A stretch of 64,000 nucleotides of DNA from Utricularia gibba (Eukaryota > Streptophyta > Magnoliopsida > Lamiales > Lentibulariaceae): NCBI GenBank assembly GCA_002189035.1, contig NEEC01000016.1, forward strand, positions 186,001 through 250,000, in the 5' to 3' direction. The first letter of the stretch is position 1. Each line of letters begins with the position of its first letter. Positions 5,198-42,460 of the stretch are shown one piece after another. The translations under genes and the position numbers were made by a program. The notes beneath the pieces were generated by a model. It was given only the letters and a program-made list of their open reading frames with translations. It was not told the DNA's origin and made no database searches.

Positions 5198-6158
5198 ATG
5201 GAGAGGGACGAGGTGATCGATCTCCCACCCGGTTTTCGGTTCCACCCGACGGATGAGGAGCTGATAATGCATTACTTATCAGTGAAGGCGAAGGACTCCA
5301 GTTTCAGGACAACAGCAATAGGGGAGGCAGACTTGAACCAGGTTGAACCCTGGGAGTTACCATGTAAGTAACAAACACTGTACGGTAGCAAGCTTCAGAT
5401 TTTTAGTGTACAATCTTGACCAAGTTCGTGGTATTTTGGTTGAAGGAAGGCGAAAATTGGAGAGAGAGAGTGGTACTTCTTCTGTATGAAGGATAGGAAG
5501 TATCCAACTGGATTAAGGGTGAACCGAGCCACAAGGGCTGGATACTGGAAGGCAACAGGAAAGGACAAGAAGATTTTTCAAGGGAAGTTCTTCGTGGGAA
5601 TGAAGAAAACATTGGTTTTCTACAAGGGGAGAGCTCCTAGAGGTGAGAAAACAAATTGGGTCATGCACGAGTACAGGTTAGATGGGATGACTGCCATGCG
5701 TATCCAGAACACATCGCACAAGGTCAGAGGAAGTAAAAGCCAATAGGGAGTTACCTTGCTTTGCTGTTTCTTCTTCTACTTGGAACCTGATCATAGTTTC
5801 TGATTTTCAGAACGAATGGGTGATCTGCAGAATATTCAAGAAGACATCAGGAGGAGACAAAGTTCATATTTCCGGTTTGGTTAGGATCCCAACCTCAGGA
5901 GATGGCTCGGGTTCCAGTTCTGGAACACCGGAGTTGCCTTCATTGATGGAGATGACGGCTGAACCTATAGGACAACACGTGACCTGCTTCTCCAATGAAA
6001 TGGAGGAGCCACTGCATAAATATAGTTATATTTCTCCCGTCACGAAGCAAAAGGACATTGGCTACAACATGTACGACATGAAAACGGTATTTGAGAATCA
6101 AGAGCTTTCTGTTATTTCAACAGCTCCTTTAGACCTTGATTCCCTGTGGGATTTCTGA
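5198..6158 (+). CDS. NAC transcription factor, NAC100/ORE1 (miR164) clade
   Basis: DNA-binding NAC transcription factor, predicted nuclear. Three exons fit: 5198-5367, 5446-5722 and 5811-6158, giving about 264 residues. Exon 1 carries subdomain A/B ([19 protein letters not shown]), exon 2 the [24 protein letters not shown] and [13 protein letters not shown] blocks, and exon 3 starts with [11 protein letters not shown] and ends in LDSLWDF. Exon 3 encodes HVTCFSN over a near-perfect miR164 site, which places the gene in the NAC100/ORE1/CUC-type miR164-regulated group by established family knowledge. The first splice is odd: the strong donor GTAAGT at 5364 joined to the only usable AG (5444-5445) gives a stop, so I used the weaker GT at 5368, which adds one residue relative to the family. 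One extra G at 5445-5446 would restore the expected LPWKAK. The gene may act in ageing or boundary control, but that is inferred from the clade only. Confidence 0.85.
5974..5994 (+). promoter_or_regulatory. miR164 target site in NAC exon 3
   Basis: The 21 bases AACACGTGACCTGCTTCTCC plus a final A pair with canonical miR164 at 18 of 21 positions. Mismatches fall at miRNA positions 13, 20 and 21, so the seed and the 10/11 cleavage site are fully paired. It encodes the conserved HVTCFSN segment of miR164-regulated NACs. Confidence 0.85.
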
Positions 6159-6653
6159 GTTCTTGATCATGGTGTATCATTAGTGCACAACAAAGGCAAA
6201 AAAGAAGAAGAAATAACTATACCGTTTATTTGGTGATAGAATACTGTTTTCTATTCTCGTAATGGGACAAAGAGTGAATCATTCTAGTATTTGAAGAATA
6301 CATGACTGGAGATCAAAATTTCTTACCCTATTTGACATCCTACGATGTTAGCTGCAAGATAAGAACTTGACAAATGACATTGAATATATAATTCTAAATA
6401 ATAATGTTGCTAATCAAATGCGTATTCACTAAATTATGCATACCAGAACCATGCATACGTATAGCATAATCTCACTCAAATAATCTAGAGGAGATGGACA
6501 TCCTTGCCGATAGAAAGTATGATTGCAAATGCATGATCAATTTTATGAAGAAGATATGGAAAAGCATGGAGAAAGTGCTAACCGGATTTACGGAAAAGGA
6601 AGAATTTGACAAACAGAGGTATAGAAAGAGGAAGAAACTTCGTAGCTTCGATT
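6159..6653. other. Convergent 3' flanks of the NAC and VTI1-like genes
   Basis: About 500 AT-rich bases between two convergent genes, holding both 3' UTRs. I see no further gene. Confidence 0.6.
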
Positions 6654-7735
6654 CTAAAATCTAAAATACAAAATTATACAAAACGTGAGAACCAGGACTG
6701 CAAGTATACCACCAATGGCCCATTTGCTATGGCATATCCTTCTTGGTATCGAATCTACAGCTCTATCAGTTGTGCTCGTTTCGTCCCATGCTCTGTGAAT
6801 CTGTTCTCGCAGGAAAATTTTATCAATATCAATTATGTTGTCATGAAGTAGCTATTACAGAAATAGACCTTTGATCCCAACAACATATATCACAAGAAAA
6901 TATTTTCTATAGGATACCATGTTTCCTTTGGCGCCTGCATCGGTCTGTTGCTGTTGGTGCAGATTTTGAAGTAGAGGCACTCCAAGTTCTTGCCCCTCAA
7001 GCATGATATCTTTACCTTCTTCAACCCTATCGCTTGATGTGTTTGAAAGTGTAGTTATGATTCTGTCACCTTTAGCTTCAGACGCAGATGCCTGCCGCAG
7101 AACAAGCAGTAGAAAATCTCATCAATTAAATTTCTGTCACCAATTGAATAGCTTGACAAATGATAAGATGGATTTCTTTTGCACGAGTGTGCAACAGAGA
7201 TGAAAACGTACAGTGGACACATCTAATATCCCAGCCTCAAGCAGCTCATCTCGAGCGTCTTTTTCCAAGCTCGTCGATGCAATTAGCTTCACTTCATTCT
7301 TCAAGTTATTCAGATCAGACTGGTACTCCCTTACCTTCGCAAGAAGAACAGCCTTGACATTCGCTTGCAAGCTTCGAGCCTCCACGTCCATCTTCCGAAT
7401 CTACCAGGACATCACCAAATCTCAAAAAACGAGGATGCATGGGTCAATTAGAGAAAAAAATTGAAAGGAAAAGAGGTAATCTCCACCAGTTCTTCGGCAA
7501 TACTCAGTTCTGAAATGATTAACCTCAGGCCTCTTCTTATCTGTAACAAATTCGACCGCCATTATCACGAGCTCAGTTCCGAGAGAATGGAATTTTTTCT
7601 GAAACATACAGCGAAGCAAATCACGTATGAAGTCCACTAACCTCCATCAACAATAACAGCAGACGACGTCTTCCTGAATAGATCTGCGGAAAGCTTGCTG
7701 AATCGGCTCTCGTAGCCTTCAAACACCTCACTCAT
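6654..7735 (-). CDS. Divergent VTI1-type Qb-SNARE
   Basis: Predicted vesicle SNARE of the VTI11/VTI12/VTI13 family, acting in trans-Golgi, prevacuolar or vacuolar fusion. Proposed exons, 5' to 3' on the minus strand: 7735-7642, 7509-7487, 7400-7212, 7091-6918 and 6800-6654, giving 208 residues in one frame (the family is about 220). The start MSEVFEGYESRFSKLSADL, the Habc helices (RKMDVEARSLQANVK, REYQSDLNNL, ARDELLEAG) and the SNARE helix start (LGVPLLQNLHQQQQ) match VTI1. The C-terminus (KWAIGGILAVLVLTFCIILY) is a single tail anchor. Exon 2 is only 23 nt in this model; the longer family-like exon starting at 7540 does not join exon 1 in phase. The last part of the SNARE helix is about seven residues short and poorly conserved. 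It may be a working but fast-evolving paralogue or an early pseudogene. Confidence 0.75.
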
Positions 7736-8267
7736 CTCTCACCGGCTGAACCTTCAATCAACGATACCGCAACACGTCCGGCCAACGAATTTCGGTGCTC
7801 TGAATTTATCAAAATGATCCATCCATCCACAGCGGCAAAAGCGAATCGGAAATTGCACTCCATATCAGAAAGAAAAAAACAGCGCGAAAATTGGAAATCC
7901 TACCGGCAGATCAGAAAATCTCCTCACTTCACGCCGTGTTGCCTGACCGTCACTTAACCGCCAAATTTCGAACCGCGAAAAGCAAAACAGTAGAATCGCA
8001 GATGGATACACAACTCCACAAAGATGTAAAGATGTGTGCACATAAGTTTGTATACATCAATCCCTCCCTCACTTACCCTATATATATGTAACGGTTCATT
8101 ATTGCGCACACGCTACAATGCTGTTAACAAGAACTCTCCCAGAACTACTGGATTCACCAAGCCTTCATCCTTCAAAATCTCCGTCAACTATAATGCGGAG
8201 ATGAAGAAGTTGGAGTCATCTTTCAGGGGGGCAATGAATGAGAGAAAATGGTTGAAATGGAAGATTC
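7736..8267. other. VTI1-like promoter and GNL1 3' flank
   Basis: About 530 bases between two minus-strand genes: the promoter and 5' UTR of the VTI1-like gene on the left and the 3' UTR of GNL1 on the right. No separate gene is supported. Confidence 0.6.
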
Positions 8268-11200
8268 TCAGGCAGCGGTTTGGTTTGGTGAAACGAGGGT
8301 GTTCCCGTCGGGAATGAGACTGCATCCAGATACGGCTTGGTTCTCTTGCAGTTTCTTCAGTTCTTCTTCAGAGAAAACTTCTGACTGCAATGAGGGAGCT
8401 ATGTTTTTGACGTGCAACCATGTAAAATCCCAGAGGCCATCTCCTGCAACAGCATCACTCGGCACAAGAATCCCACTTGCCTTCATTACCAGAAGTGTAT
8501 TCTTGAGAAGCTCCGGGACCAACTCATGGATTTTTTCGCTCTTTTTCCCTCGAAATCTCAGGTTCAGATATTTTTCGAGACAACGAAGCACCTTGAGCCA
8601 GATTTCGCTGAATGCATTGGACTGAGAGATGTCATTCAAGGACTGTAGGAATGCCTTGGTCAATAGCTTGAGGGCCAAGATCATTGAGCCTTCCATACTG
8701 CGATAATCTTTCAAAGAATGTGGCAGAACCATGTCGAGTAGTTCATCGACTAGCTTAAAAATGACTTGATCTAGATACTGCAACAATATATCGGTTGGTA
8801 CCTGGATGCCATCCACACCAGCTGAGCATCTTTGCAGAGACATGATGGCATGATTCCTGACTACTTCCCTCTGATCCACACATACTCTCTTCAGTCCTTG
8901 ATTAACTCTCATCCACATTTCTAGTATGTCCTGAGACATCTTTTCAACTGCCTCCCCACTTGCTGCTTCCTTCGTCTTTCGATACCATGCTGATAGGCAA
9001 ACAACTGAGTCGGCCATCAGGTCTAAGGACTTGATAGAGCGATCAACCTGACCAACCCTTGACTCGGCAAACTGCCTAGCAGCACTTATGCAGAGAACAT
9101 AGTTTGCGGGAGACAGGTGAGCCCCGTCAGACATAATATACCTCAGAGTCTCAAACCCAGCTTCGGATGCTTCAGGATGGCGAGCTGTGATGGAGAGTAG
9201 AGAGATGATTGTCCGCCAACCCATGTGGGATCTTATCTGAGCAGCATTTGCTTTTACAAGATGCATCACTTCCTGTGTGATTTGTTCACAATAAGCATCA
9301 GCCACTCGTGCATCAAGTTTCAACACTAGTTGCAAAGACTTCAGAAGCTCATCAGTAAGGTTTTCTTTGTATGGGAGCAAGCGCTGGCATATTTGAAGCA
9401 GCCCAAAAACAGCCTTCTCTACAAGGGCACAAGGCATTGCAATTGATTGAACAACATTCGCTATGTGCTCATAAACCTTTTGCCATAGCAGCATGATTCT
9501 ATCCCTATTGTTCAGGGTGACTGCAATCAACAATTCCAAGCAAAAAACACTTGTTTCTTCATCTTCGACAGAAATATTCCCTTTCAGAGAGCTTCCTGCA
9601 GTCATAACTAGAGCATGGACGAGCTGCGATAAGGAATCTGCTTGCAGAAACTTGCTCTCGGCAAAAATGCTATCAATGTGGCAATTTTGAACCATCTGCA
9701 CAATGCGCCGACGGCCAGCAACTTGCTCTTCGGAGGGTTGGGTTGTTGCCTGTTCTCCATCGAGGGATAATAGAAGGCTAAAACGGCCCATAATACCTGA
9801 TGGCTTTCTGGAGGTAGTCACTGCTGGTGCCTGGAATATGGGGGAATGATTACCAGATAACGTGGTTTGATCCATGAGAGGAAGAGACTCCAGGTCATCG
9901 GTAGCATCATTCACAATATGGGAAGGAAGAAGGCCTATTTTCTGCAAACTCAAGATGCATTCCACTATGTTTCTCCAGCCTGAACGAATGTGATCTCCAT
10001 AACGGTTGACAAGAGTGAAAACTGCTTCAGTTGCTAACTTAGCTTTGATGTCATCCCCAAAATAGAGGAGTGACTTTTCAGAGAATGAAGGATGCAGTAA
10101 GGTGGTAAATTTGCAAAGAGATACGACCATATCATTCAATACCTCACCATAATTGTATGACACTGAAAGCTTTGCAATGGCCAAAAATCCATCAATACAC
10201 GAGTTCAAGGTCACTTCTTGTTCTGCATGGTCAAATACAACAGAAACAGCAGCAACAGCTGTGCCAGATAAAACAGCAAACATGTCGTAGTCAAGATGAC
10301 ATGCACCATCAGAGGCTATATAAGGGGTAGTTTGCTTTGCCTTATGCACCAGACCAATCCAGTGGCTCCGCCTTAGAACTGCAGCAGAACCAACTTGATC
10401 TGGAACCATACGAATTTCATTTTCACAGATGGAATGATACAGCTCAGACAAGAAATCTTGAGGAAGATCTTTGCCACCGTTTATTTTTCTGTTGTTTCGG
10501 ATAAAATCTTCCTCACTCATTTTCTTCTTGACCTGTGTATTGTGCTGATCTGTGTTAAGCATTATTAGAGAATATGATAGCAGGAGGGCAGCATCCTTGT
10601 TGACCAAAATATCTGGTGATTGCTCATAATAGCTCTCAGAAAATGCTTCAAGCACTCGGTGTATTTTTTGTGACTCCCCTGGTAATCTAAAAGTTTCCAA
10701 AAAAATCCGTAAAGCAACATCGAGATTCATGTCTTTAAAATCAAAAGTCCTTGCAAACTCCTGAAGCACCTGAATGGAAAAGGGATCATGGCTACCCAGG
10801 AAATCTCCAATCACATCCTTATCTAATCCAAAAGTAAATCTAAAGAAGAATGCAACACTTTTGGGATCCAGTTTTTCCGGCAATAAGTGTGTTGCCTGAA
10901 GAGCCTCCAGACCCTTTTTTGGGTCCGTGTTAAATTGATCGACACCAACAACCAACTTTTTCTTTATTTTTTTCATATTTCGAACAAATGGAACCCAGTG
11001 AAGAGGCTGCTCATAATCATAGCATCCCAGTGTCCAAAACGGCTTATATTCTGTAAGTTCCTGAGAATATTCCCCATCGCCTGATGCAGTTGGCCCTATT
11101 CTATCAGCCATACTTTCAAGCACAGCAATAAGGCCATCCAGAGCAAGAGTGTTTATAACAGACAATGGACTGTTCACAGGAAAGGCACTCCTTGAGAGCA

Positions 11201-12671
11201 AGTTTGCAATGGCTTCAAACACATTAGTGCATGATATATCGCAATCATAATTAGCATACATATCAGTTGCGAACATGGGCTGTCTGCAAAGGTCAATAAG
11301 AGCTTCCATGGCAACTTCTTGTTGTTGGTATGAAGCTCCATGCTTACCTTGGGCAACCCTCAACAGAACACCAGAAATAAAAGCCTCAAGCTGTAGTTTT
11401 AATTTAGTGCGAAGATGATGATAGAGATTGAGAACTATACTGCACACTGTTGAAAGAATAAGAGGGCTCATTGACAAACCAAACTGCATTAGGTTGCAGA
11501 ACAGATCTTCCTGTATAATAGCCAATAACTTAGGATGGTTCCCAAGAGAGGGGCCGCTTAATTCTATTGCAGAATTAATCAAGCCGAGAGCAAACAGAGG
11601 GACATCTTCAACATATGCGATCGGATTTGATCTTGAACTAATTTCAATGTTCTCCATCACATTTAATAGGGAGCACAAGAAGTGAAGAATTTCGATTGCC
11701 GCAGGGAGACCATACGGATCCATCATGGAAGAATTACCAATAAAGGAGCCATCATCACCATCACCAGACTCATTCTTTTTTTCATATTCTGCAACATGAA
11801 AGCCATCAATATGCAGCTCTGTTTTGACAGAGTGATTTTGAACTGTTTCCACATCCTGCAAGGATATTTTCATTAATTGTAAAAAGCTTAACTCATCATG
11901 CGCAAGAGGGCAATTTGCATGCTAGTTACTGCTTACCTCTATTTTGGGATATCTATCTCGACGGGTTATGTCTTCCATTCCATCATGAAAGTAAGGAAGG
12001 CGCAAAAAAATACACCTTACAAGTTCATGCATTGTGTGTCGGGATGTCCTTTGTAGCAGTTCACTTTTAGAGCTTGCCTGATGAACAATACGAAAACAAG
12101 CATTAACTATGCTGCATACATGATGATTGCTTAAACTATTAGACGCTTGACTTTTCATGCAAGCCAAGAGAACTTGAAGAATCTTCATCAGGACAACTTC
12201 CTCAGATGCTGGATCTGTAACTTCAAAGCGACAACTCGTTACAGCATCCACAATTAGATGTAAAGCACTATCCACATTCACAGTTCTCGAATCAAGAATC
12301 TGTAGGTTTAAGATTTTATAAATGGATGACAGAGCAACTCCAGTGATGGGTGCACCAGTTTCATCAGATTTAATGATATCCAAAAATGGCTGGATGTATA
12401 GAACTGGATCAACAGTATACCAATGGCTTTGCCACAAAAAGATCTTCTTGCGAAGCTCCTTGAAAGATACTATGAGAGAATGCTCTAGCTGTTCATCATC
12501 AGCACCATATTGAACTCCCCATCTAACGTTTCGCCTCATTACAGCCAAAACTGCACCAATTTCTGAATTCACCATGCAGGCTAAAGCACCACCGGAGGGC
12601 CTGAATGGACACTCAGGCTTCTCCAACACCCCATTAACTTTGCTCTGCTGGGGTGTCGATCTCATATCCAT
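8268..12671 (-). CDS. GNL1: GNOM-LIKE 1 ARF guanine-nucleotide exchange factor
   Basis: Large GBF-type ARF-GEF that activates ARF GTPases on Golgi membranes to drive COPI traffic. Two coding exons, 12671-11937 and 11855-8268, are joined in phase 0 and give 1440 residues, close to the family's 1440-1450. An N-terminal DCB-type region (SEIGAVLAVMRRNVRWG, ADDEQLEHSLI) is followed by HUS motifs, the Sec7 domain around residues 530-740 (FRLPGESQKIHRVLEAF with catalytic Glu639; SYSLIMLNTDQHN) and the HDS regions. Sequence choices such as ENLTDELLKSLQLVLKL and LLKNTLLVMKASGILVP fit GNL1 better than GNOM. Met677 occupies the position whose side chain sets brefeldin A sensitivity. A 5' UTR intron seems to run from a donor near 13498 to just before the ATG. 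The 3.6 kb second exon is fully open, so the gene looks intact. Confidence 0.93.
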
Positions 12672-14193
12672 CTTGCTTGGAGATCCACCAGGAAAAAATG
12701 GATTTCACCCTTAAAAGCTGATGAAGAAAATCCAACAGAAATTAATGAAATGACATTAATGTTACAAAAAAAGGGGGGAAGTAACAACTTGGAGCGTAGA
12801 TAACAAAAGATTAGGAAAACCCAAAATAAAGCAATAAAAGACAAATGTTGCCTAAATCTTGACATATGAATACGAAACATTACACATTATATCAGCAAAC
12901 AGAAAAAACCCATTCGATTTAATCACCAAAATAAGGACTTATTCCAAACACGAACATGAGGGACTTATTCCTCTAAACTGTTTTTTTCGGGCGTTACAAT
13001 TGGACTTGTTGACATCACTCAAAAGGGAAAGATGGGATATAGAATGGGTAGGTGCTTTTTAAGTTGCTTGTCTAGTCCCATTGATAACAGAACTACAGAC
13101 ACCAACAGAACTATGATCTCGCAGATGAGCACCGATCCAGGAAATGCTTGCAAAATATGCATCATATATAACAGGAAAATTAAACTTAATTATCGGCTGT
13201 CACCACCCACATAAAAGAAATCATCATAGTAGAAGTGTAATTTTAAAGTTCGAGATTCAATAACTCACCCGATCCAACAATCACATCCAGCTACATTTCG
13301 CCCGCCCACACCCAACACTAAACAACCAAGTAAAAAGATCCAAGAATTAAAACGCAAGATCCAAAGCAAACACATCACCAAAATAGGGAGAAGAGGATGA
13401 CTATATTTGGAATCATCAAGCATGATTATCGTCAAACAATCTACAGTGTTAACCAGAGTCTTCCCGAATCAAAGCATGTGAAAATGTAAAGACAATTACC
13501 AGTGTGAATACCGATCCACAGAGTTATTCTCCGTCGAACGCTCTGCCTGCGGCGAGAGAGGACAAGAGTTGACCCTTCGAATTAAAGAAACTAAAATGGT
13601 CAAGAACCCGATGTGAGCTCCTCGTTCTGGCGCTGTAACTAAGCCAAGCCTGTACGTTATACGTAAATTAACAACGCTGTCACCGTACGTGCGCTTTTCC
13701 CGTATTTGAGCCCGCCGCCTACGCTTTATCTCTTGGGCCGCGCATAGGCCCAATCGGCTACCTCGGGGCACTTGCTCTTCTTTATTGCCTTGCCTTTCTA
13801 GATTTCAAACATTACCTTTGATAAGAAATTAAGTGTCGAGTTGAGTCAACAAGGCTTATTATATTTATATCTATGGAACTAGAAAACATGCAACAGTGAC
13901 TACAAACACCTAAATCCACCCTCGTAGGAGGGTCAGAGAACTTAAGTTTTCATGGGTTTCAAGAGGGCGGGGGCACAGCCACATGTAACATCATGACACA
14001 GAGTAGAAGCTGACAGACAGAAGCCAATTCTGCTAGGAAGCCACAAAAATGTAGGCTTCTTCAATTCACATGCATTGTTTCTTTATTTTTTTTCCACCCT
14101 GTGGAGAGAAGAACTGGCTTCCACCTGCTGGCATTAGTCTCGTATATACAACAAACTCCTTACCAACCATGCTTCTTTGCGACAGGGAGCCTG
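12672..14193. other. GNL1 leader intron and promoter; SnRK1 3' flank
   Basis: On the minus strand a donor (CTG|GTAATT) near 13498 suggests a noncoding first exon at roughly 13499-13570 and a leader intron of about 0.8 kb. The GNL1 promoter lies to the right of that, and the SnRK1 3' UTR reaches in from 14193. No extra gene is seen. Confidence 0.5.
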
Positions 14194-18702
<4,509 letters not shown>

Positions 18703-20294
18703 TCATATCACGATTTGCCCTTGTTTCCGGCACAGAGTCGCCGGCCTCTGATTGGTGCCTCCGGAATTTTGAGGCCTCACATGGTGAGGATCTGCCTGGC
18801 TACTGTGCTTCCCAGTTGGGATATCGTGATTGTGCTTCCCCTCGTATGTAGTAGTCACATCCCTTGTGTCTGATGTAGCTCGTTCCACATGCTTCCGAAC
18901 ATTACAACCAGCGTATGTGCATCTGTAGTAGCTCCTGCAGAAGAAACCCAACATGAACCTGGATGAGATTGATGCCAAGGTAGAACTAGAAACCATGCTA
19001 TGTATCCTGCTCTTTCCACCCATTTTACAGTGATGCTGCTTAAATAAGGCACCTTGGATGTGTTTTCCCCTTCACTACTTTCTGTCCGTACTTTCTCCAT
19101 CTATATCCATCGTCCAGAAGATCAACCTCACTCCTCGTCTGCACAACAATTTTGTACTCTGTAGAGGTTCGTGGGGCAGGTTTTTCGAGTTCCACATTTC
19201 TGCAAGACAAATCAAACGAGCTTTCATGGATTAAAAGAGAGAAGCATCGGATGAAAAGTTAGGCACAGTGGCCTACCTTCTCTTTGCATCAGGTATGTCT
19301 CCCTCTTCGTCATCTGGTACAACTACAGACTCTTTGCTCTCATTTTTATTATCAGCCACAGAATGTGAGTCGAATGCTTCCTGACCAACCAAAGGCATGG
19401 ATTTGCTCTGCGCAGGATCTTTTCCTCGTTTGCTTGACTGGGGAGGATCATGATTGTGCTGCCCTTTGTATATAATCTCCGAGATGGAGCCATCTGTTGA
19501 TGTTTCCACTTTCTTCCTCACAGGGCAATCAGCATGTGAACATCTGTAGTAGCTCCTGGGGCATTCCCTGGCCTTCACATTCTTCTGCCCGTACTTCCTC
19601 CAGTTGTAGCCATCGTCACCTGGATTTCCGAGTTCGGCTTTCACCGCAGGCGCTTTCATCTCAGGTTGAATTCCATCATATGACTCAATTTTCATAGCTT
19701 CTGCTTCTGGTAGGCTTGGGAAGGCATCATATGAAGGCGATGATGGTGGGTGCTGCTGAATTTGCATCTGAGTGCAGGAATCATTCAAGGCAGCTTGAGC
19801 AGTGACAAATGCGAGAGCTTGCTGGTGAGAGATAGCAAAAGGGCTCTGCGTGGATTCAAGGACTCAAGGTTTTAAGCTGATCCCCAAATGGATTACAAGA
19901 TTCACACAAAGCAGGAAACTGACCTGAAGCGGAGATAAAAGCCCCGGAGAGGGAAGCAACCCAGAGGGCGTCGGCGTCATACCAGATGGAATCATCAACA
20001 GATGGCTCAGACTGTCGGCCGACGGCGCCACCGCCAAGCTCGTCGGCCGGTTTCGCTTATAACCCCCACCTCCCCCGCCGCCGCTCTGTCCATCCGCCCC
20101 CTTATCTCCACCCGTCTCCCCCGGCGTCACACCCCGTGGCGTAGCTTCAGAAAAGAAGCTCGAAAGCAGGGTCAACGGACCTGGGCTGAACCCGAGTCCC
20201 CAAACTCGTATCCGAAAAAGGATTCCACGGGAGCCGGCGGCGGGACCAGGATGGACGCCGGCTTCGGCCTCCGAGCTTCTTCACCCCCATCCAT
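18703..20294 (-). CDS. Group I WRKY transcription factor (WRKY3/4-like), frame broken in exon 1
   Basis: Nuclear W-box-binding factor with two WRKY domains. Exons: 20294-19924, 19845-19277, 19199-19053 and 18934-18703. The N-terminal region has [16 protein letters not shown] and, across the first splice, [19 protein letters not shown], as in WRKY3/4-type proteins. Domain 1 (exon 2) has WRKYGQK plus a C2H2 finger (CSHADC...HNH). Domain 2, split by the typical group I intron, has [15 protein letters not shown] and CTYAGC...HNH; its next residues read KGKTHPR instead of the usual KGNPNPR. The natural ATG (20294) reads [14 protein letters not shown] and then hits a stop, whereas all conserved sequence lies one frame away. 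One more T (minus strand) in the five-base run at 20215-20219 would join them. It is either an assembly error or a recent frameshift; the rest of the gene is intact. Confidence 0.85.
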
Positions 20295-21398
20295 GGCTTC
20301 TCCTTGTCCCTCAGTTCCAGAATTCTGCCATGAAACTTAATATCTCCCCTCCTGAGCAAGCATCTCGGCAAGGGAAGGCAGCAATCATGTAGAGGCCTTC
20401 GAGAGGGGTAAAAATCCTGATCCCATGTGCGTTTCTTCGCATTGTTTATGCCCGCAAGTTGGATTAAAAGATGGATCAAGTAGGCCAAGGTGAGGTACAA
20501 CCCGGGGGGCCGACCGGGTGCGAGTTTGCAATCACGCAGGGTGAAGCAACTGACACCCATTACCTCACATCAACCGCCATCAATGAACCCTTGGGTTGCT
20601 TCACCCCCTACGCCTTTGCAAAATCTTGTCTTCTTTATTTCCTTAACAACTTCCTCGACAAAAATGACAATAACAAAGACCTGTAATTAATTACTTGATC
20701 TATTTGTGTAAAAAATGAATGTTCAATGGACATGCCCATGCTGTCAAATGATGGAGCGCATCATTTTGTTTACCATTAATATCGAAAAAAATAATATTTT
20801 TTATATTATATTTTATTTACCATTCTTCAATTCTATGAAAATCATTTATTAAATAATTGCGGATACATGTTTTAAATTCTGATTCAGTTAAAAAGTAAAA
20901 TTATTTGAATTAATATACTTTATTATTAAAAACAATAATTGATTTAAATAACTTTAAAAAATTCATTATCATATTTATTGAAGAAGATAGAATTTATAAA
21001 CTACATTATCATTATATTTAGTACTTTAAATTAGTAAGAATGAATAATTTATCCATTTTAATCTTTAAATAACTATATAAAATATATGCTACTAATTAGA
21101 ATTACATATTTCTAACTATTTTTATTATTAAAAAATAAAAAATGTATATTTATTGATAAAAAAAATTATCACTTAGAATCAATTGGTCCCCGTGTTTTTT
21201 TTTCTTTTTTTGCCTTTTTTTGTGAAGCTAAGTAGTGTGTTGATTTGGAGCAAGGCCTCCCTCTCCTCGCAACGATTGTGTTATGTTTTTTTTCAAGATA
21301 CAATCAATAATAGAAGTGGCTGCAAATCTGCGACGTGGCCTTGAACCAGATAAAAAAAAGGTCGATGACTGTCTTATTGACTCAGCAACAGAAATTTC
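20295..21398. other. Divergent promoter region, WRKY / UPF0301 gene
   Basis: About 1.1 kb between two divergently transcribed genes. The middle (20690-21170) is very AT-rich with T and A runs and no coding signal. Both 5' UTRs fall here. No separate gene is supported. Confidence 0.5.
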
Positions 21399-27624: not shown

Positions 27625-27972
27625 ATCAGTTGAGGCCAGCTTAAACCAACCCGAGAAAAATGTATTCTTGATTTGATGTAAATTATTGTTGTACTCAGCA
27701 TAGGCCATGCCTAAGTTACCCAGATTCCAAGTTCACCTGAACGTTTGATTGTCTTGAGAAAGCAGCAGTTTTTGCTACTGTTTTTGGAACACAAAAGAGA
27801 AGATTTTCCAGATGAAATCTGGTTTTACCCGAGTTTTGATTGGTTTTAGATCCATGCACAGTTGTGGAATCAATTGAAAAATGTATCTTCATGAAGTTTG
27901 GGCAATGACTTCTATAAGGATAGTGGAATTTGTCAGCGGGATGTTGAGATATCAGCTTACTGAAAAGGCTGC

Positions 27973-30099
27973 ATGTTTGTCCGAGGAGCGAAGGTGGCAA
28001 AATCTCCAACGCGAATCTACAATGACACCCTTTCTTCTTGGAATTCAACCGTAGTTCAATATTACAGAGACGGTGATCACAAGGGAGTTCTGGAAATTTA
28101 TTTGAATTTGAGACGGAAACATGTAGGTATTTGTGGTGTTGCCATTAATTTCGCGTTGAAAAGCTCTGAGGAATTGGGAACGTATGGATTTGGAATTAAT
28201 CTTCACGGCGATGCATTGAAATCTGGATTAAGTTGTGATAGATATGTGGGTTCATCGCTGATTGGATTCTATTCTGGGTATGACCGAGTAGTTAATGCAG
28301 CTCAGGTGTTCGACGAAATTCCTCAGAGAGATCTTGTAGCTTATACTTCTATGATAACTGCGTATGCGCGAGCTAGTACTGGTCATTGCATCAGCAATGC
28401 TTTCACAGTTGCATGTGATATGCAGATTGAAGGACTCCAGCCGAACAGGGTGGCGCTGGTGAGTTTACTGCAATGCTCATCACGACTCCGAGCGCTGGTT
28501 GAAGGGAAATCCATTCATGGTTATGCAATGAGAAGAGGTATTGGTCATAATGATGAAGTATTCAAAACCAGCTTGATGCACATGTATATGAAGTGCTGTG
28601 ATCTAGCTCATGGGAATCTGGTCTTCAAGGATATAAGGGAGAAAAGTAGCGGTCCCTGGAATGTGATGATCAGTGCTTATCTTGAAGCTGGTCAGCCTTT
28701 GGAAGCTTTCAAGCTTTTCCTTCAAATGGTAGTAGATAAATGTGTGCTTGACTTGATTGCATTGTCGAATGCATTATCGGCTTGTGCAGAATTAGGTGAT
28801 TTGCTCGTAGGAAAGATGGTTCAAGGTCAAATACTTCGAAGAGGATTTGAATTAGATTTAATTGGAACTACTGCTTTAGTTGACATGTATTGTAAATGCA
28901 GTGACTTATCTTCCGCAGAAAGCATTTTCATTAAAGAGCAGGCAAAGGATGATGCGCTGTTTAACGTGATGATCGCTGGTTTTTTGCGTAGTGGATGTGT
29001 TTTTAGAGCCATTGGGACATTCCAAGACATGATCGCCATGTGCATTGCACCAAATGCAGGTACCCTTATCAGCATCCTCTCAGCCCTTTCTGAAATTGAA
29101 GATTTCAGAGCAGCCAAGTGTATTCATGGATATGTTCTGAGACAATGTATGGAGGAGAGCGTTTCTCTTTCCAATCAGTTTATTGATACGTACGGGAAGT
29201 GTGGGTTCATTGAATATGCAAGAAGAGTGTTTCATGGCATGAATTTCAAGGATACGGTGTCGTGGACGTCGATGATGGCCGGCTTTGTGATTCAGAGACA
29301 TGCTGATGAAGCGTTAGCCTTGTATGCAATGATGCAGAGAGAAAACATAGTCTCTGATGCTGCCGTGTTCACATGTCTGCTGCAAGCACTGAGTCAGCTT
29401 GGATCTATGCGTTTTGTGAAGGCGTTGCACGGTCACCTGCATCGCTTGCGGCTTCTGGAGAAAGACGCGACACTGGTGAACACCTTGATAACTACATACA
29501 GCAAATGGGGAGAACTTGATGCTGCCATCACTCTTTTCCAAGACATGCCTAAAAAACACCTGTCTTCTTGGAACACCATGATAGCTGCATATGGAATGCA
29601 TGGGGACATTTCCCAAGCTTTGAAACTTGTTAATCAAATGAAACAGGAGAACACTGTACCCGATGAGGTAACATTCAAGTCAATCCTATCGGCCTGCAGC
29701 CACAATGGGCTAGTGGAAAAGGGACTGCTATTTTTCAGATCAATGCAGGAGCAATACGGGTCATTTCCGTCCGGTGAGCACTATTGTTGTATTGTGGATT
29801 TGCTGGGGCGAGCAGGGAGGCTCGAAGAAGCATACAATCTCCTGAAGCATGCCGATCAACTACACAACATTTCAGCTCTTTCTGCTCTGCTTGCTGGTTG
29901 TAGAACTCATGGAAATTGGGAGATAGGTGAAGAAATTGGAAAATGGTTACTGATGGTGAACCCCAAAAACAGAAGCGCCTACTGCTCCATGTCGAACACA
30001 TATTCTTCTGGGGGGAGATGGGACGAGGCAGCTCATGTTGAGTCTCTTGCTAAGCTTGAAGGACTCAAAAGAATTCCTGGTTATAGCCTCATCGGATAA
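27973..30099 (+). CDS. PLS-class pentatricopeptide repeat protein, E subgroup
   Basis: Intronless 708-residue PPR protein, predicted to bind organellar RNA and help C-to-U editing or another processing step. PPR units of the P, L and S types run from about residue 45 to 640, with recognisable pieces such as VAYTSMITAYARA, NVMISAYLEAGQPLEAFKLF, TLVNTLITTYSKWGELDAAI and SWNTMIAAYGMHGDISQAL. The C-terminus has an E-type region (LSALLAGCRTHGNWEIGEEI ... NRSAYCSMSNTYSSGGRWDE) and stops at LKRIPGYSLIG, so there is no DYW deaminase. Editing factors of this kind usually borrow a DYW partner. The N-terminus is basic and hydroxylated, compatible with import into mitochondria or plastids, but I cannot tell which. 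The frame is fully open, with no sign of decay. Confidence 0.93.
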   Translation: MFVRGAKVAKSPTRIYNDTLSSWNSTVVQYYRDGDHKGVLEIYLNLRRKHVGICGVAINFALKSSEELGTYGFGINLHGDALKSGLSCDRYVGSSLIGFYSGYDRVVNAAQVFDEIPQRDLVAYTSMITAYARASTGHCISNAFTVACDMQIEGLQPNRVALVSLLQCSSRLRALVEGKSIHGYAMRRGIGHNDEVFKTSLMHMYMKCCDLAHGNLVFKDIREKSSGPWNVMISAYLEAGQPLEAFKLFLQMVVDKCVLDLIALSNALSACAELGDLLVGKMVQGQILRRGFELDLIGTTALVDMYCKCSDLSSAESIFIKEQAKDDALFNVMIAGFLRSGCVFRAIGTFQDMIAMCIAPNAGTLISILSALSEIEDFRAAKCIHGYVLRQCMEESVSLSNQFIDTYGKCGFIEYARRVFHGMNFKDTVSWTSMMAGFVIQRHADEALALYAMMQRENIVSDAAVFTCLLQALSQLGSMRFVKALHGHLHRLRLLEKDATLVNTLITTYSKWGELDAAITLFQDMPKKHLSSWNTMIAAYGMHGDISQALKLVNQMKQENTVPDEVTFKSILSACSHNGLVEKGLLFFRSMQEQYGSFPSGEHYCCIVDLLGRAGRLEEAYNLLKHADQLHNISALSALLAGCRTHGNWEIGEEIGKWLLMVNPKNRSAYCSMSNTYSSGGRWDEAAHVESLAKLEGLKRIPGYSLIG

Positions 30100-30370
30100 A
30101 TATTGCAAGAATTCCTTCATTTCCTTGTAGGCCTCCGGTGCGGTATTCCGATGCGACGGATGGCCAACTGCTTCAGCGTTTCTGTAGCTGGGGGTTTTCC
30201 ACAATACCCTTCTTGTTTATTGTCCACAAGATGGTTTGCTCCAACGGAAAACGATGCCCACAAGAAGATAGCGAGCAACTGAAGGAATTAGGCTCGTCCA
30301 CGTGTCGCGATCTTCACGAAGCCTGACCCAGAAGCAAGAGCCTCAGTTCATTTCTGAGTAGAATCAAGCT

Positions 30371-32125
30371 ATGGCCTCCATCATCCCGGTGGCGATTCCC
30401 AAGTGTTCGTCGTCGTCGTCTCTTTTTACTCCTCATGATCTTCTTCATTCTGCTGAGATCTCCGGCGGGCTGCGGATGACCAGCAACACGCTGAAACACG
30501 GAATGAGAAAAATCAAATCCGCAAGAAAAGATTTGCACTTTGTGGTTTCCGCGGCCACTGAAAGGCGTGGAGGAGGAACCTTTTACTTCAATATCACCGG
30601 CTTCCCTTTCCCACTTGGTCCATTTCTCAACCGTTCCACTGTTAAATACGAGGTGCGTGTTCCTTCCTTTTTCGATGTTTTCAGGTTCGGTCGGGATGTA
30701 CTCGATTCTCTTTGGTGTGCTTTCGTATCCGCTTTGGTTTCGACGGCTTTTTATGCTGGAATTTCAGGCTGTTAAAGACACCATATGGCTGTTTGAACAA
30801 GAGCAGGCCCTGGGTTTCAGCAGTGTCTCAACCAACATACGGATGACAGTGATCAAGCTCAAGTCAGGTGGATTGTGGGTTCATGCGCCTATTGCCCCAC
30901 CGAAGAATGCATTACGGTAATTGGGTCTTCTTTGAAATGCTTGCAAACTGAACATTCTGTCAAGCTAATTAGGCCTCAGATCATCATTGTTGCAGCTTTT
31001 GAAAGAGTTAAGAGCTCCAGTGGAGTATATAATCCTGCCCACCTTTGCATATGAGCACAAAATATTTGTTGGTCCGTTTTCGAGAAAGTTTCCTCGAGCT
31101 CAGGTATGGGTGGCTCCTCGGCAATGGAGTTGGCCATTGAATTTACCCCTGGAGTTTTTTGGAATATTCCGTGCCAAAACGTTGCGGAACGACGACTTAG
31201 CAACCCCCTGGGCGGAGGAGATTGAACAGAAAGTTCTTAGCTCTCCAGAAGTTGGTCAGCAGTTGCCCTTGTTATTGTTGAAAATCCTTGACTGATTTCA
31301 TTAGCTAATCAAATTTATGGAATGTTTCAGGGATTGGACCATATGTAGAAGTTGCATTCTATCATAAGCGCACAAGAACACTCCTTGTGACAGATGCTGT
31401 CATATATGTTCCAAGGCAGCCGCCTGAATGTATTGGCAAGGACTCGTTGCTAAAATCAGCTGAAAACGGATTGGCTGTCAAGATTCTAAGTAAAGGAAAA
31501 GAGGTACCTGAGGAGCCTGTTGTCGACAACAAGGTGAACAGGCAAAAAGGTATGGCTTTGCAGCATTTCAATCCTAAGGCAGCATATATTTGTGATTTAA
31601 TCCATTGCCTCGTTCAGGATGGGAAAGAATGGTTCTCCAGATACTTTTCCTCGGTCCTTCCAATCTGTTGGAACCAAATGCTAGCTTTTCACAGATGTCA
31701 CAAAAGCTAATAGTCTCTCCTATTATAAAGACACTGGTTTTCAGCAAAGTTCCTGAAAAGGTAGATTGATCATACATGCTCATTCATGTAACTCTAGTCT
31801 CCTTTAACATGAACACATTGCGCAGGTCAGAGACTGGATCAACGGTATCATCAGAGATTGGAAATTCAAAAGAATAATTCCTGCTCACTTCGCTGCACCC
31901 ATCAACGCAAGCTCATCAGACCTGCTTTCTGCATTCTCATTCCTCGATGATCTTTTGGGTGAACGCATTGCAACTCGGCCATCACTTTACCTTCTCTTGA
32001 CATCTGCTCTGGGGAAGGCCGCAAGCTACTTCCCTCCTGATGACATGAGGACCCTATCTTCTCTTGATCAGTTCCTGGTCTCCGTTGGGGCTGTGAAGAA
32101 GACCGTCTCCGGACGCAAGAAGTAG
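30371..32125 (+). CDS. DUF4336 plastid protein, one splice out of phase
   Basis: DUF4336 protein with a likely chloroplast transit peptide (Ser-rich first 60 residues); function unknown, although the fold has been compared with metallo-hydrolases. Exons: 30371-30652, 30768-30916, 30996-31254, 31331-31549, 31618-31760 and 31826-32125, about 450 residues. Conserved stretches are DTIWLFEQEQALGFSSVSTN, MTVIKLKSGGLWVHAPIAP, LPTFAYEHKIFVGPFSRKFP, QVWVAPRQWSWPLNLPLEFF, VEVAFYHKRTRTLLVTDAV and DWKFKRIIPAHFAAP. The exon 2-3 junction fails: the donor at 30917 leaves two bases, while the acceptor at 30995 opens phase 0. One extra G in the GG at 30916-30917 would repair it and give the family's spacing. 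A canonical alternative, acceptor at 31012, keeps frame but drops about five residues. Confidence 0.85.
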
Positions 32126-32667
32126 CAAAAACTCAGATCTCCCCACCAGTAGTAAGTTTTGTAGATAGCTCCCTCTTCTTTGAGCAAGCGTGATTGTATG
32201 TATACCTGATTTTCTTGTGTCTTGGCTCAAAACCCATGTCTTGATTCAAGTGTCTGAACCCACCATTCTGCATCTTGGATGTGACTTTGTGAAATCACTT
32301 GCAATTTTTCATTTTGATAATCTGTATGCAAAATCATGTGTTAATGCTAAATGTCACAAAGCTATGTTTGTATTGTAGTCTCATAACAGCTTCTTTATTT
32401 TGATCTCCTCAAGGGCAATAACGTAATTAAATGTAAATAGAAAAGAATATAATTGATATTTTATTATTTATTTATAAAATCATTTGTAAACAATTCGTTG
32501 GGGGAAAACTATGCAGAGCACTGTGCGTGTTGGCTCTGTTTAACCGGAAGAAGGTCCGTCCTCGGGCTCCTCACTCCCAATAGGAGTGGGATTGGATTTC
32601 TTAGCCGCTGCTACACTGCATGATCATTTGCAGATGAGAGCTGTGTAGTAGATTGGTGGACAGGGTC
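32126..32667. other. Intergenic DNA, DUF4336 to glucosidase II
   Basis: About 540 bases holding the DUF4336 3' UTR and the promoter and leader of the next gene. No gene of its own is seen. Confidence 0.6.
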
Positions 32668-35600
32668 ATGGGAAAAGCTCTCTACGTTTTTTTGATTCTC
32701 TGCTTATTCGTTGATGACGGTTTCTCTTGGAAGAAGGATGAGTTCAGGAACTGTAATCAAACCCGTTTTGCAAGCGTGCCCGTTCTCAGAAGCCGGGCTC
32801 CTGCTCCTTGGTGGCTACCCATGTCGCCATCGCCGATGGTGATCTTGTGGCAAAGCTAGAGAACAATCAGGGAGGTTCTGAAAGTGGGGAGGTTGCTGCG
32901 AAGCCTTTAGTACTCAGTATATCAGCGTACCAAGATGGTGTGATGCGGCTGAGAATAGATGAGGATCAAAGTTTAGGGCCGCCGAAGAAGAGATTTGAGG
33001 TTCCTGATGTCATTGTACCTGAGTTTTTGAGTACGAAGCTGTGGCTTCAGAGGTTAGAAGAAGAGAACAGTGAGGATGGGTCGGGTGTCTTGTCGACTTT
33101 TTATCTTTCCGATGGGTATGAGGGTGTGATTAGGCATGATCCCTTCGCGATTTTTGTGAGAGAGAGGGGTAGAAATGGCAAAAGGGTGTTATCTTTGAAT
33201 TCGAACGGTTTGTTTGATTTTGAACAGTTAAGGGAGAAAAGGGAGGATGAGGATTGGGAGGAGAGATTTAGGAGTCATACTGATAAAAGACCTTATGGAC
33301 CACAGAGTATTAGCTTTGATGTCTCATTTTATGATGCTGATTTTGTTTATGGTATCCCAGAACATGCAAGTAGCCTGGCGCTAAAGCCGACCAGAGGACC
33401 TGAATTTGAGCATTCAGAACCTTACAGGCTTTTCAATCTTGATGTTTTCGAATACGTACATGACTCACCTTTTGGGCTATACGGGAGTATTCCATTTATG
33501 TTATCTCATGGTAAGTCCCGAGGTAGTTCAGGTTTTTTCTGGTTGAATGCAGCTGAAATGCAAATAGATGTTTTGGCTTCCGGTTGGCATAACGAGTTTG
33601 AATCAGTTCTAAAGTTGCCTTCTCATCAGGAAAGGATTGACACCTTGTGGATGAGCGAGGCTGGTGTGGTGGATGCCTTCTTTTTTGTTGGTCCAGGGCC
33701 AAAAGATGTAGTTAGACAGTATACTGCTGTCACAGGAACATCAGCCATGCCTCAGTTGTTTGCCACTGCCTACCATCAGTGCAGGTGGAATTATAGGGAT
33801 GAGGAGGATGTCAGTAATGTTGATGCCAAGTTCGATGAGTATGACATTCCCTATGACGTTTTGTGGCTTGATATTGACCATACTGATGGGAAAAAGTATT
33901 TTACATGGGACAAGCTTTTATTCCCAAATCCACAAGAGATGCAGAGGAAGTTGGCTGACAAGGGTAGGCATATGGTAACAATCGTGGATCCTCACATTAA
34001 GCGAGATGATTCTTATTTCATACATAAAGAGGCTACAGAACAACGATACTATGTGAAGGACTCCAGTGGCAATGACTTTGATGGATGGTGCTGGCCTGGC
34101 TCCTCATCTTATTTGGATGTTGTCAATCCAGAAATTAGGTCTTGGTGGGCAGACAGATTCTCATATAAGAATTATGTTGGTTCAACATCATCGCTGTATA
34201 TCTGGAATGATATGAATGAACCTTCAGTGTTCAATGGCCCAGAGGTAAATCTTGACGTCTTCCATAGCTTCTGCTATTCCTATGTTGATGTTAGAATTAG
34301 TTTTAAGCAGACCAAAGGCTATGGATGGCACATATGCTGTAGATAATGCGTTCTGTGGAAACAAACGGCATATGTTTTTTTTTTTCACTTTGCAGCTATC
34401 TGAATGCATGACTCTTTATCGTTTTGTTTGTTGTTACCATCTTTGTTTTTTAATAGATGGTTTGCATTTCAAGTTTCCATTGTGATATCAAAAGTTACCA
34501 AGTTCTTTTCCTTCACCTGTATGCCTACTTTACTTATTTGGTGGTTGAGGCTTTCTTAGTGCTTTTCAAAACTGTGTGTCGTGGTTACTCTTGGGGAAAC
34601 ATTTTACCTTCATTCAGGTATCAATGCCCAGAGATGCTCTGCACTATGGAGATAATGAGCATCGGGAGTTGCACAATGCCTACGGCTATTACTTCCACAT
34701 GGCTACGGCTGAAGGACTTGTTAAGAGGGGGAGGGAAGGGATCGGCCCTTTGTTCTTTCTAGAGCATTTTTCCCTGGAAGCCAACGATATGGAGCAGTGT
34801 GGACTGGGGATAACACGGCAGAGTGGGAGCACCTGCGAGTTTCAGTTCCTATGATTTTATCTCTTGGCCTCACCGGGTTGTCATTCTCTGGTTAGGAAGT
34901 TTTTCTAGTTATATCATCATCTCGTGCATTTGTACCAATTTATGCACTTGTTTATATCTATTCTTCACAGGTGCTGATGTTGGTGGGTTTTTTGGTAATC
35001 CTGATACTGAATTGCTAGTTCGTTGGTATCAGCTGGGAGCCTACTATCCATTCTTTAGAGCACATGCTCATCATGACACAAAACGGCGCGAGCCGTGGCT
35101 ATTCGGGTACAAAACACTTCTTGTGATGGTATATTTCGAGTGTGTAAAGCTGAATGGACGCTGAACAAACATCACAACCATGTGTTTTGGCATAGAAGCA
35201 GTGTTTATGTTGAATTGTTATAAAAAGTCTTTTTTCATGATACTTTGAATGCAGGGAGCAGAACACAATACTTACCCGGGATGCTATACACATACGGTAT
35301 ATGTTGCTCCCCTATTTTTATACATTGTTCAGAGAGGCAAATGCTACCGGCATCCCAGTTGCTCGCCCCCTTTGGATGGAATTTCCATTTGATGAAAAAA
35401 CATTCAGCAACGATGAGGCCTTCATGGTCGGAAATGGCCTGTTGGTTCAAGGAATATACACTGAGGTGCTCCTCTTTTTCGCTATTCTTTCATTCTTATC
35501 CTTGCACTGATGCTTGTCTTCCTCAAATGGATTGATATCTCTTATTTCTATGCTCAACGATCACCCAGGGAGCTAAGCATGTCTCAGTCTATCTTCCCAG

Positions 35601-36222
35601 CAGCGAGCCTTGGTACGACCTGCTGACTGGAGCTGCTTACAAGGGAGGAGCAACCCATAAGCTGGAAGCTATAAAAGACAGGATACCAAGCTTCCATCGT
35701 GCAGGTACCATTATACCACGCAAGGATCGGTTCAGGCGAAGCTCGACACAAATGGAAAATGATCCCTACACGCTGGTAAGCCTCGATACTCGCATATGCT
35801 AGAGAATGAATGCAGTTGACATCAAGACAGAGTGCACTTCTTATCCTTTTTTGTTATCCAACTTCCAGGTGGTGGCACTCAACAGCTCGAATGCAGCAGA
35901 AGGTGAGCTTTACATTGATGACGGGAAGAGCTTCGAATTCGTAAAGGGTGCCTATCTGCATCTTCATCTCACATTTGCTAATGGAATGCTTTCTTCCTCC
36001 AACATCGGCCCTCAAAAATTCACATCTCCCTGCACTATTGATAGAATCATTCTACTTGGTTTGTCTCATAAACCAAAAACAGCCGTTGTTGAACCCGATA
36101 ACCGCAAGGTGAACATTGTAATGGGACCTGTTACATTCCTGGGAAGCTCAGGCTCAGCAGCCCCAACCATTCGTAAGCCTGGCCTCCGCATTTCAGATAA
36201 CTGGAGGATCAAAGTTCTGTAA
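32668..36222 (+). CDS. RSW3: ER glucosidase II alpha subunit (GH31), two frame breaks
   Basis: Catalytic subunit of glucosidase II, which trims the inner alpha-1,3 glucoses from N-glycans in the ER for calnexin-type quality control; the Arabidopsis orthologue is RSW3/PSL5. A signal peptide ([19 protein letters not shown]) starts exon 1. Exons: 32668-34244, 34618-34890, 34971-35106, 35255-35465, 35569-35775 and 35869-36222. GH31 motifs include [32 protein letters not shown] with the nucleophile Asp (about residue 515), and [17 protein letters not shown]. The frame breaks twice. After CNQT near 32762 the family sequence [15 protein letters not shown] continues one frame off, and after GLVKRG near 34727 so does [19 protein letters not shown]. 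One extra base in the CCC at 32762-32764 and one in the five-G run at 34727-34731 restore 919 residues, against about 921 in Arabidopsis. Confidence 0.92.
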
Positions 36223-37011
36223 AACCTTAACATAGCACTTTGGTTGCTCTGTAACTGGGATTTAGCATGGACACCCAAATTCAACTCCATGAGATGGATG
36301 AAAGCAGAAACAGTGATGCCTTAGAATTTACTGTGAATGCGAGATTGACCTATGCTTCTTGCATGTTTCATTTTGGTTAGTGTTTCATGTCTAACAACTG
36401 CTAGTAGGCTTGACGCCAACTCTCTGCTTTTATTTTCTAGAAACGATAAGAAACAGCAAGCTACTTATGAGTACACGTTGTCATTATTACTTTCTCTGCA
36501 CACTCCAGAGTAGGCTCAGTGGGTAAGCCAACAGAACACTGTAAATTGATTCTCACCCACAACTTTATATCGTTTGATATCACTTCCCCTTCCAAAAAGC
36601 ACTGATCCATGTATTTTAGAATCAATTCTCGTGCCAAATAGAATCCAACCCTTCTTTTTCAAAAGCTACTGACCTGAAATGCTTCTCTAGATTTTTTAAG
36701 TTGTTACTTGCACAAGACCCCTGTACTTTTTAGAGCATCTTTCAGGTTCTTTTAGGATGAAGGCTATGTGGCCATGCTACCATAGCATGGTGAACTCAAT
36801 AGTCAATCATTGAAGTGAACGGATATCCCCCACCAGCCACTGAGCTTTTTGCTTGCCATCGTGGTATGTCGAGAGATTCAGAGCACAGATCTCATTCATT
36901 TGAATTGTCTGCCCATCTGCCCCCTGAAGTAAAAATCTAATATTTCTTCAGCTCCCCTTCCTTGGGCTGTGTTCCTTCCATCCTCCCTCTTGTTTGAGCG
37001 TCAAGACACGT
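36223..37011. other. Intergenic DNA, glucosidase II to UVR8
   Basis: About 790 bases with the 3' UTR of the glucosidase gene and the UVR8 promoter and leader. No separate gene is supported; a tRNA-like stretch near 36510 was rejected. Confidence 0.55.
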
Positions 37012-39761
37012 ATGGCAGAAGTGGAGGTAACACAAGGTGGCAGCAGTAGTGGGAGTGAAGCAGCTACTGGTCCCATACGCCGTGTGCTTCTCATCTCAGC
37101 CGGCGCAAGTCACTCCGTTGCGCTTCTCTGTGAGTGGTTGTTTTTTTTCTTCATTTTGTATCCTGTATGTTTGGCAAAATGCCTCTGAATGATCTGCTGC
37201 TTTATCCTTATCCTGGATGGACGAGAATGTTCCACGTTTTCCTTGTTGTATGATAGTTTATTCGAGGTATATGTGTACCTTTTGAGAATATCTCGCGTTA
37301 TTGGGTTTATTTGACGAGTTAAACAATATATAAGTGGGTGTTGGTGTAGGTGCAAGTGTCACTTCTTCTAAAATTTGATGAAGTTTCTAAATGGAAGATG
37401 AATCTCATGTAATCCATGTCAAGTTTCGGATTGGCACTACTATTTGGTATTTAATGAAATGCAAGACGAGTTTTGCATGGATAACATGATGTAATGCAGC
37501 TGGTAATGTCGTTTGCACTTGGGGGAGGGGAGAAGATGGTCAGCTAGGACATGGAGATGCTGAGTATCTGCTTTCTCCGACGCAATTGACTGCACTTGAT
37601 GGCCAAGAGATCGTTACTGTCATTTGCGGAGCTGATCATACAACAGCCTATTCAGAATCACAGCTGCAAGTTTTTAGCTGGGGCTGGTAATTTCTCTTAA
37701 TGCAATGCATACATAGCTCATTTTCTGCATCTTTTTTTATGTGATTTCTCACTTCCTACATTGTACAGGGGTGATTTTGGGAGGCTAGGGCATGGCAATT
37801 CCAGCGACTTGTTTTCCCCTCAGCCAATTAAAGCATTGCAGGGTCTGAAGATAAAGCAAATTGCGTGTGGAGATTGCCACTGTTTAGCAGTGACCATGGA
37901 AGGTGAAGTTCGAAGGTCAGACACCCTTGTCTTCATGCTAATATGCTTGTTTTTGTCATTATGTTAGTGAAAATTTGCGATGCTATTTTCTTTGATTGCA
38001 CTGCAGTTGGGGAAGGAACCAAAATGGTCAACTAGGACTCGGGAGTACAGAGGATTCTTTAGTGCCTAGGAAGATTGAATCTTTCGAGGTGTTAACAGTT
38101 CTCTAGTTCTACAATTTTAGATCCCTTTTAATTTATGCCATGGGGAGAATGCTATTGACTCTCATGACGATGACAGAAATGTCTTTTTAACGATTGTTGA
38201 AGCATGGTACATTTATCCCTGAAACTGATACTTACATCTTGTTTACATGATTGAGTGTTGATATTGCTGAGGATTATGTTTTGAGATGTGGATGTTTCAT
38301 GTAGGGCATTGCAGTGAAGATGGTGGCTGCTGGTGCTGAACATACTGCTGCTGTAACAGAAGATGGTGAGCTCTACGGCTGGGGCTGGGGGCGATATGGT
38401 AACCTGGGAATAGGTGACAGAGCCGATCGCCTTGTCCCAGAAAAAGTTACACTGTTGGGGTATGCAAATACTCAAAGGCTGACTGTGACTGACCTTGGCC
38501 AAGATAGATGGTGCTCTGCCACTAGTCTTTTTCTTCATCTCATTTTGGTACTGCTTGATGCAGGGAGAAAAGGTGATCCTGGTAGCATGCGGTTGGCGTC
38601 ATACGATTTCAGTCTCTTCCTCTGGTAGTTTGTTTACTTACGGGTGGAGCAAGTATGGCCAACTGGGACATGGGGATTTTGAAGATCACCTAATTCCACA
38701 CAAGGTCCAGTCTTTGCAGGGGCATGAGATATCTCAGGTACATCCATTCTATTTACAATGAAGCCATCTAATTTTTTATACTTCAGGAGTTTTTAACGGC
38801 AAGTTCTTTATATGATTTCTTCAATAAAAAACACGTTTCCTTCCAGATTTCGGGTGGTTGGAGACACACAATGGCTGTGACAATTGATGGTAGACTTTTT
38901 GGTTGGGGATGGAACAAGGTTCTTAGTCTATTTTTATTCACACATTCTCATTTTTCCTCTTTCTTTAAAAGAAAACTAAACCTGCACTTGTTTTTTCACC
39001 ATAGTTTGGACAAGTTGGAGTTGGTGACAATGTGGATCATTGCTCACCACAACAGATAAAGCTTCCATTTGATCAGGTGCTGTCTCGTTTTAAACTTATC
39101 TTTCCCTTGGAAAGAGATGCCTTCCTTGATGGATTTTCAATCTGAAATGAGATCAGAGAGTGGTGAACATCGCATGTGGTTGGAGGCATACACTTGCTGT
39201 CACTGAAAGACATAATGTGTTTTCATGGGGAAGGGGCACAAATGGTCAGCTCGGTCATGGCGACTCCATTGATCGGTAAGCCCATGACCTCCACTCACAG
39301 GATGGCATAGAGAGAATGTCCAAAAAATCTGTCAAAATTGTGCTGATTGACAGAAATCTCCCAAAGATCATAGAAGCACTGAGCTTGGATGGATCAAGGG
39401 GGCAGTACATAGAGGCCTCCAGAGCTGAGATATCTTCAGGTTTCAAATGTGGCTTCCCAGCTGATAAAATGCTCCTTGGTATTCATTCCTATTATGCTCA
39501 TGGTGTGCATGTTCATAATGCCAGAAAAATCATGGACTTCGCCAACTGAGAGATATGCAGTTGTGCCAAATAAGAACGTAAGATTTAGCAGCATCATCAT
39601 GAATGACAACACCTTAGCAAGCCTCTGAATTGAATACTTTCTATCCTCTTTTTTTTCTCTGACAGCGGCTAGGGAAGCAGCACCCAGAGCTGGAACTCGG
39701 AGGAAATGGGAATGATCTTGATGTCCCTCAGAGTGGTGACACGAAGAGAATGAAGATTTAA
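37012..39761 (+). CDS. UVR8: UV-B photoreceptor UVR8 (RCC1-repeat protein)
   Basis: Seven-bladed RCC1-type propeller that senses UV-B through tryptophans, monomerises and binds COP1. Twelve exons: 37012-37129, 37500-37686, 37769-37915, 38007-38088, 38305-38459, 38564-38737, 38847-38918, 39005-39076, 39157-39275, 39354-39439, 39525-39577 and 39666-39761, 453 residues after one correction. The three GWRHT motifs place Trp241, Trp293 and Trp345 where Arabidopsis has W233, W285 and W337, and Arg294 matches R286. The C-terminal tail ends [15 protein letters not shown] with the COP1-binding Val-Pro pair (442-443). The exon 5-6 junction is out of phase by one base: the four-G run 38457-38460 needs a fifth G to give [17 protein letters not shown]. 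Everything else is intact, so I take the gene as functional with a probable sequence error. Confidence 0.95.
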
Positions 39762-41223: not shown

Positions 41224-41272
41224 TAATATATATAGATATATATATATATATATATATATATATCTATATCTA
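41224..41272. repeat. (TA)n microsatellite
   Basis: A TA dinucleotide run of about 14 units (41236-41263), flanked by degenerate ATAGATAT and ATCTATAT copies that extend it as an inverted repeat. Self-complementary and probably length-variable. Confidence 0.9.
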
Positions 41273-41746: not shown

Positions 41747-41759
41747 CCCCCCCCCCCCC
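41747..41759. repeat. Poly(C) tract
   Basis: Thirteen consecutive C followed by ACCCTACCCCTACCC, a C-rich strand that could fold as an i-motif, with a G-quadruplex on the opposite strand. Its length is a likely sequencing weak point. Confidence 0.85.
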
Positions 41760-42428: not shown

Positions 42429-42460
42429 CACGTGTTGAGCCTAGAATCTTCCAGTATAAA
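42429..42460 (+). promoter_or_regulatory. ABRE/G-box plus TATA box of the ATAF-type NAC gene
   Basis: ACACGTGT (CACGTG core at 42429-42434) lies 20 bases before TATAAA (42455-42460), which itself is about 125 bases before the start codon. An ABRE-like G-box this close to TATA fits abscisic acid or stress control, as known for ATAF-type NACs. Confidence 0.65.

Follow-up and report, generated by a model that had tools for sequence, protein, structure and literature searches.

The residual deletions left in PacBio CLR assemblies by the Quiver consensus are single-base, enriched in G or C runs and cause false frameshifts in genes, and they are the closest described counterpart of the frame losses reported here (PMC4832174; PMC4888979). 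The losses here are single-base as well, and probably share the enrichment and the false frameshifts. In a Streptomyces assembly, 205 indels remained after Quiver, nearly all of them in G or C homopolymers (PMC4832174). The same class of residual consensus deletions was described by Watson and Warr (2019), as far as the citation of that work in PMC9985148 indicates. Pseudogenes formed after whole-genome duplication offer a second comparison, and the feature shared with them is a frameshift in one of two copies. Unlike such duplicates, the present cases include single-copy and highly conserved genes, come with no other decay and are uniform in sign and apparently in context.

The window, that is, the whole stretch of 64,000 nucleotides that was analysed, corresponds to C402:186001-250000 in a plant assembly of 100.09 Mb and 516 contigs. 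We take this assembly to be the 2017 long-read assembly of Utricularia gibba, presumably produced on the PacBio CLR platform. A literature search, with the 2017 genome paper outside its scope, found no statement on indel errors of this assembly. Part of the window has a colinear duplicate, or homeolog, elsewhere in the genome (Table 1), which lies in reversed orientation and shares 75-89% DNA identity with positions 32596-44061.

Table 1. Location of the genes with frame losses in the window, of the homeologous stretch and of the frame splits found elsewhere in the genome (n, number of splits).
Feature	Location	Strand	Remarks
NAC transcription factor gene	5198..6158	+	NAM domain across 2 exons; Pfam NAM, both exons
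Group I WRKY gene	18706..20300	-	Pfam WRKY; exon 1 frame change between 20198 and 20219
DUF4336 gene	30371..32125	+	single copy; Pfam DUF4336; relatives aligned
Glucosidase II alpha-type GH31 gene	32669..36223	+	one-base losses at CCC 32762-32764 and G5 34727-34731
UVR8 gene	37013..39762	+	one base (T) lost between 38451 and 38452, not in a run
Colinear duplicate (homeolog) of window 32596..44061	C505:2117001-2147000		carries glucosidase II, UVR8 and NAC
NAC splits, n = 3	C409, C480, C2
HSP70/BiP splits, n = 6	C451, C496, C255 twice, C1, C304 with C241
HSP90 splits, n = 3	C451, C255 twice
Actin split, n = 1	C1

A sequence-only reading of this DNA had proposed up to six missing bases in five genes. 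In glucosidase II, the two losses that it placed at CCC 32762 and G5 34727 were both borne out base by base by the homeolog at C505, which reads ACCCCA where the window has ACCC-G and GGGGGG where the window has GGGGG, and the aligned coding parts of the two copies showed no frame-changing indel beyond these sites. Across the second break, the frame of the Pfam GH31 matches changes, as does that of the matches to PDB structures, and the piece downstream of it matches animal glucosidase II structures. The protein of the copy at C505 is 93% identical over the long exon, and dN/dS between the two copies is about 0.11; the dS values of glucosidase II and UVR8 against their homeologs are about 0.36-0.44.

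Similarly, the loss in UVR8 stands when compared with the homeolog and with Arabidopsis UVR8, but its proposed placement in the G4 run at 38457-38460 does not, as the absent base is a lone T at 38451/38452, 8 bases upstream of the donor. The homeolog reads ACATCTGTTCAG|GT where the window reads ACA-CTGTTGGGGT, which in codons is GTT ACA TCT GTT CAG|GT against GTT ACA -CT GTT GGG|GT; the solved Arabidopsis protein has VTSTGGEK here, so that the serine codon of the window gene has lost its T. As written, the exon and the acceptor are out of phase. An alternative donor (AAAAAG|GTTACA) used with an internal acceptor was considered and rejected, because conserved residues would be deleted. The second UVR8 copy, at C505, gives a dN/dS of about 0.10 against that of the window; a search for a haplotig of the UVR8 stretch turned up this diverged homeolog alone.

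The loss of splice phase in NAC, at GG 5445-5446 at the start of exon 2, was confirmed against the closest paralog (L013), which has one G more at the acceptor. The paralog is spliced as CCC T|gtaagt...cag|GG AAG GCG, whereas exon 1 of the window gene ends in CCA T|gtaagt and its acceptor reads ...aag|G AAG GCG. In WRKY, the frame of exon 1 shifts between the FF motif and the GFSPGP motif, and this change is supported by two intact paralogs, at C98 and C412, in which the N-terminal SPGPMTLVSS motif lies in one frame. Its placement in the A5 run at 20215-20219 is uncertain, as the spacing and residues fit the loss of one base from a G4 run (CCCC 20198-20201 on the plus strand) at least as well.

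DUF4336 is the ambiguous case. The failure of the canonical phase is real, the donor at GG 30916-30917 being one base short for the acceptor at 30995/30996, but the missing base is not secure, as a second acceptor (cctcag|ATC, 30979/30980) lies 16 bases before the canonical one and keeps the frame of the unaltered sequence, with SSLLQ as additional residues. The Pfam score is 343.7 bits for the contiguous form vs 339.6 bits for the form using the upstream acceptor, and cyanobacterial relatives mildly favour the contiguous join. Either a base is missing or the upstream acceptor is used with five extra residues, the contiguous form being slightly preferred. Alternative splicing through a second in-phase acceptor (window 30980-30995) is possible in this gene.

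The claim that every case is a missing base thus holds for five of them (NAC, WRKY, glucosidase II twice and UVR8) and is ambiguous for DUF4336. That every case sits in a homopolymer is wrong for UVR8, and the argument is weak for the GG and CCC sites because 46% of the coding bases here sit in runs of at least two. A long gene, judged from its translation to be BIG-type ARF-GEF-like, occupies positions 8271-12704 on the minus strand and provides a local negative control, with an open frame of 1217 codons and no frame loss. The stop between its long ORFs was considered as a further break and rejected as an ordinary intron, as was an NPH3-like frame break at 50465-50745.

NAC, HSP70, HSP90, actin and tubulin genes were surveyed genome-wide for exons that fall apart into adjoining or overlapping segments read in different frames, on the basis of search tables and short cut-outs, with a matched sequence of very roughly 100 kb (summed from the tables). 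All 13 within-exon splits found outside the window, in NAC, HSP70/BiP, HSP90 and actin, are net -1, their start-to-start distances being 2 modulo 3, and the 12 sites other than the one on C304 and C241 each showed a one-base loss in base-level alignments or frame translations. The five losses confirmed in the window have the same sign. The contexts, assigned by parsimony, are CCCC, CCCCC, CC(C), GGGG, GGGGGG, GG(G), A6, C6-7 and one lone C, the latter at an HSP90 site outside any run. Most losses appear to fall in mononucleotide runs, mainly short ones of G or C, with UVR8 and the one HSP90 site excepted; this share is a parsimony estimate since gaps at third codon positions are not strictly placeable. 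For comparison, G or C runs of at least three hold only 4.7% of the coding bases. Unlike in the PacBio CLR/Quiver pattern, lone bases are lost here too (the T of UVR8 and the C of HSP90), the platform presumably being the same.

Over five families and many contigs, coding sequence thus shows about 0.13 losses per kb, or one in about 7-8 kb. At this rate, about three within-exon losses are expected from the coding sequence of the window, roughly estimated at 22-25 kb, and four are observed (WRKY, glucosidase II twice and UVR8), in addition to the junction of NAC and perhaps that of DUF4336. The density of losses in the window is ordinary and there is no hotspot. One tubulin-like piece (C1:5059605-5059932), with a +1/-2 split, was excluded from the count as this copy carries stops; it is probably a true pseudogene.

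One HSP70 locus is present on two contigs, C241 (31 kb) and C304. Across 10.4 kb, the two versions show 22 mismatches and ten indels of one base, or about one such indel per kb. Such indels (seven) even exceed the mismatches (six) in one 6 kb part, whereas they rarely do so in natural variation. The contexts of these indels (C5/C4, G4/G3, G3/G2, A7/A6, T8/T7, short pairs and lone bases) resemble those of the coding cases, and some of the differences could reflect true heterozygosity. The stretches concerned, C241:1-20000 and C304:2230001-2250000 (L065-L068), resemble two haplotypes with a tandem pair of HSP70 genes. The first HSP70 copy carries an identical frameshift on both contigs, which may be real or systematic, so that not every case need be an error. 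The second HSP70 copy in C241 was matched only at profile positions 350-597, as if partly deleted.

The proposal that the assembly has under-called bases is supported by the genome-wide -1 pattern, by the indels between C241 and C304 and by the published PacBio consensus errors with this signature of sign and context (PMC4832174; PMC4888979). We consider it very probable that the frame losses of the window are residual one-base deletion errors of the long-read consensus. Such a consensus would have been released without full polishing by accurate short reads, its caller omitting one base, most often in a short G or C run and occasionally a lone base. An omission in an exon or at a splice junction would make an intact gene look frameshifted, the DNA of the plant itself carrying the longer sequence. 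A point against consensus error is that real deletions outnumber insertions in most genomes.

The alternative that survives best, a recent and real loss of function in redundant copies left by whole-genome duplication, the deletions being true, is unlikely. Duplicated genes could nevertheless lose their function in this way, and the earlier argument that essential or conserved genes would hardly become pseudogenes is weak because glucosidase II and UVR8 have second copies at C505; NAC also has close relatives, and the HSP70 frameshift common to both haplotype contigs points in the same direction. However, WRKY has no other close copy in the genome, DUF4336 is present only once, and the -1 sign is invariable. 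HSP90, BiP and actin genes that are intact in every other respect show -1 losses at a similar rate. In addition, the dN/dS of about 0.1 in glucosidase II and UVR8, a sign of purifying selection, and the lack of stops or larger frame-changing indels in the exons compared disfavour old pseudogenes, although a very recent loss would leave no such trace.

That real single-base changes are compensated at splicing appears very improbable as a general explanation. DUF4336 provides the model for it, since its donor joins in frame to the acceptor at 30979/30980, with five extra residues and a drop of only 4 bits in the Pfam score; yet the relatives slightly favour the contiguous join, no rescue that retains the conserved residues was found for UVR8, and the explanation accounts for one of the six cases. 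We would give slightly less credence still to a combined scenario in which the losses are real, the strongly shrunken genome having a bias to one-base deletions in G or C runs that recently broke many genes, some of which, such as DUF4336, were rescued by shifted acceptors. Programmed ribosomal frameshifting or RNA-level correction at the runs can practically be dismissed, as no point in its favour was found, the sites differ between copies and the relatives are simply in frame.

If the losses are consensus errors, false frame breaks at intervals of roughly 7-8 kb of coding sequence would truncate or mis-splice a sizeable share of the gene models in this assembly. Unless it is polished, the numbers of pseudogenes and gene losses counted for this genome would be inflated. 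The frame losses are thus to be taken as a quality warning and bring no new biology. As a separate observation on the assembly, the lengths of C1 (8,500,000 nt), C2 (6,192,500 nt), C409 (2,492,500 nt) and C505 (3,452,500 nt) are all exact multiples of 2,500, far above chance, perhaps reflecting a chunked consensus or trimming.
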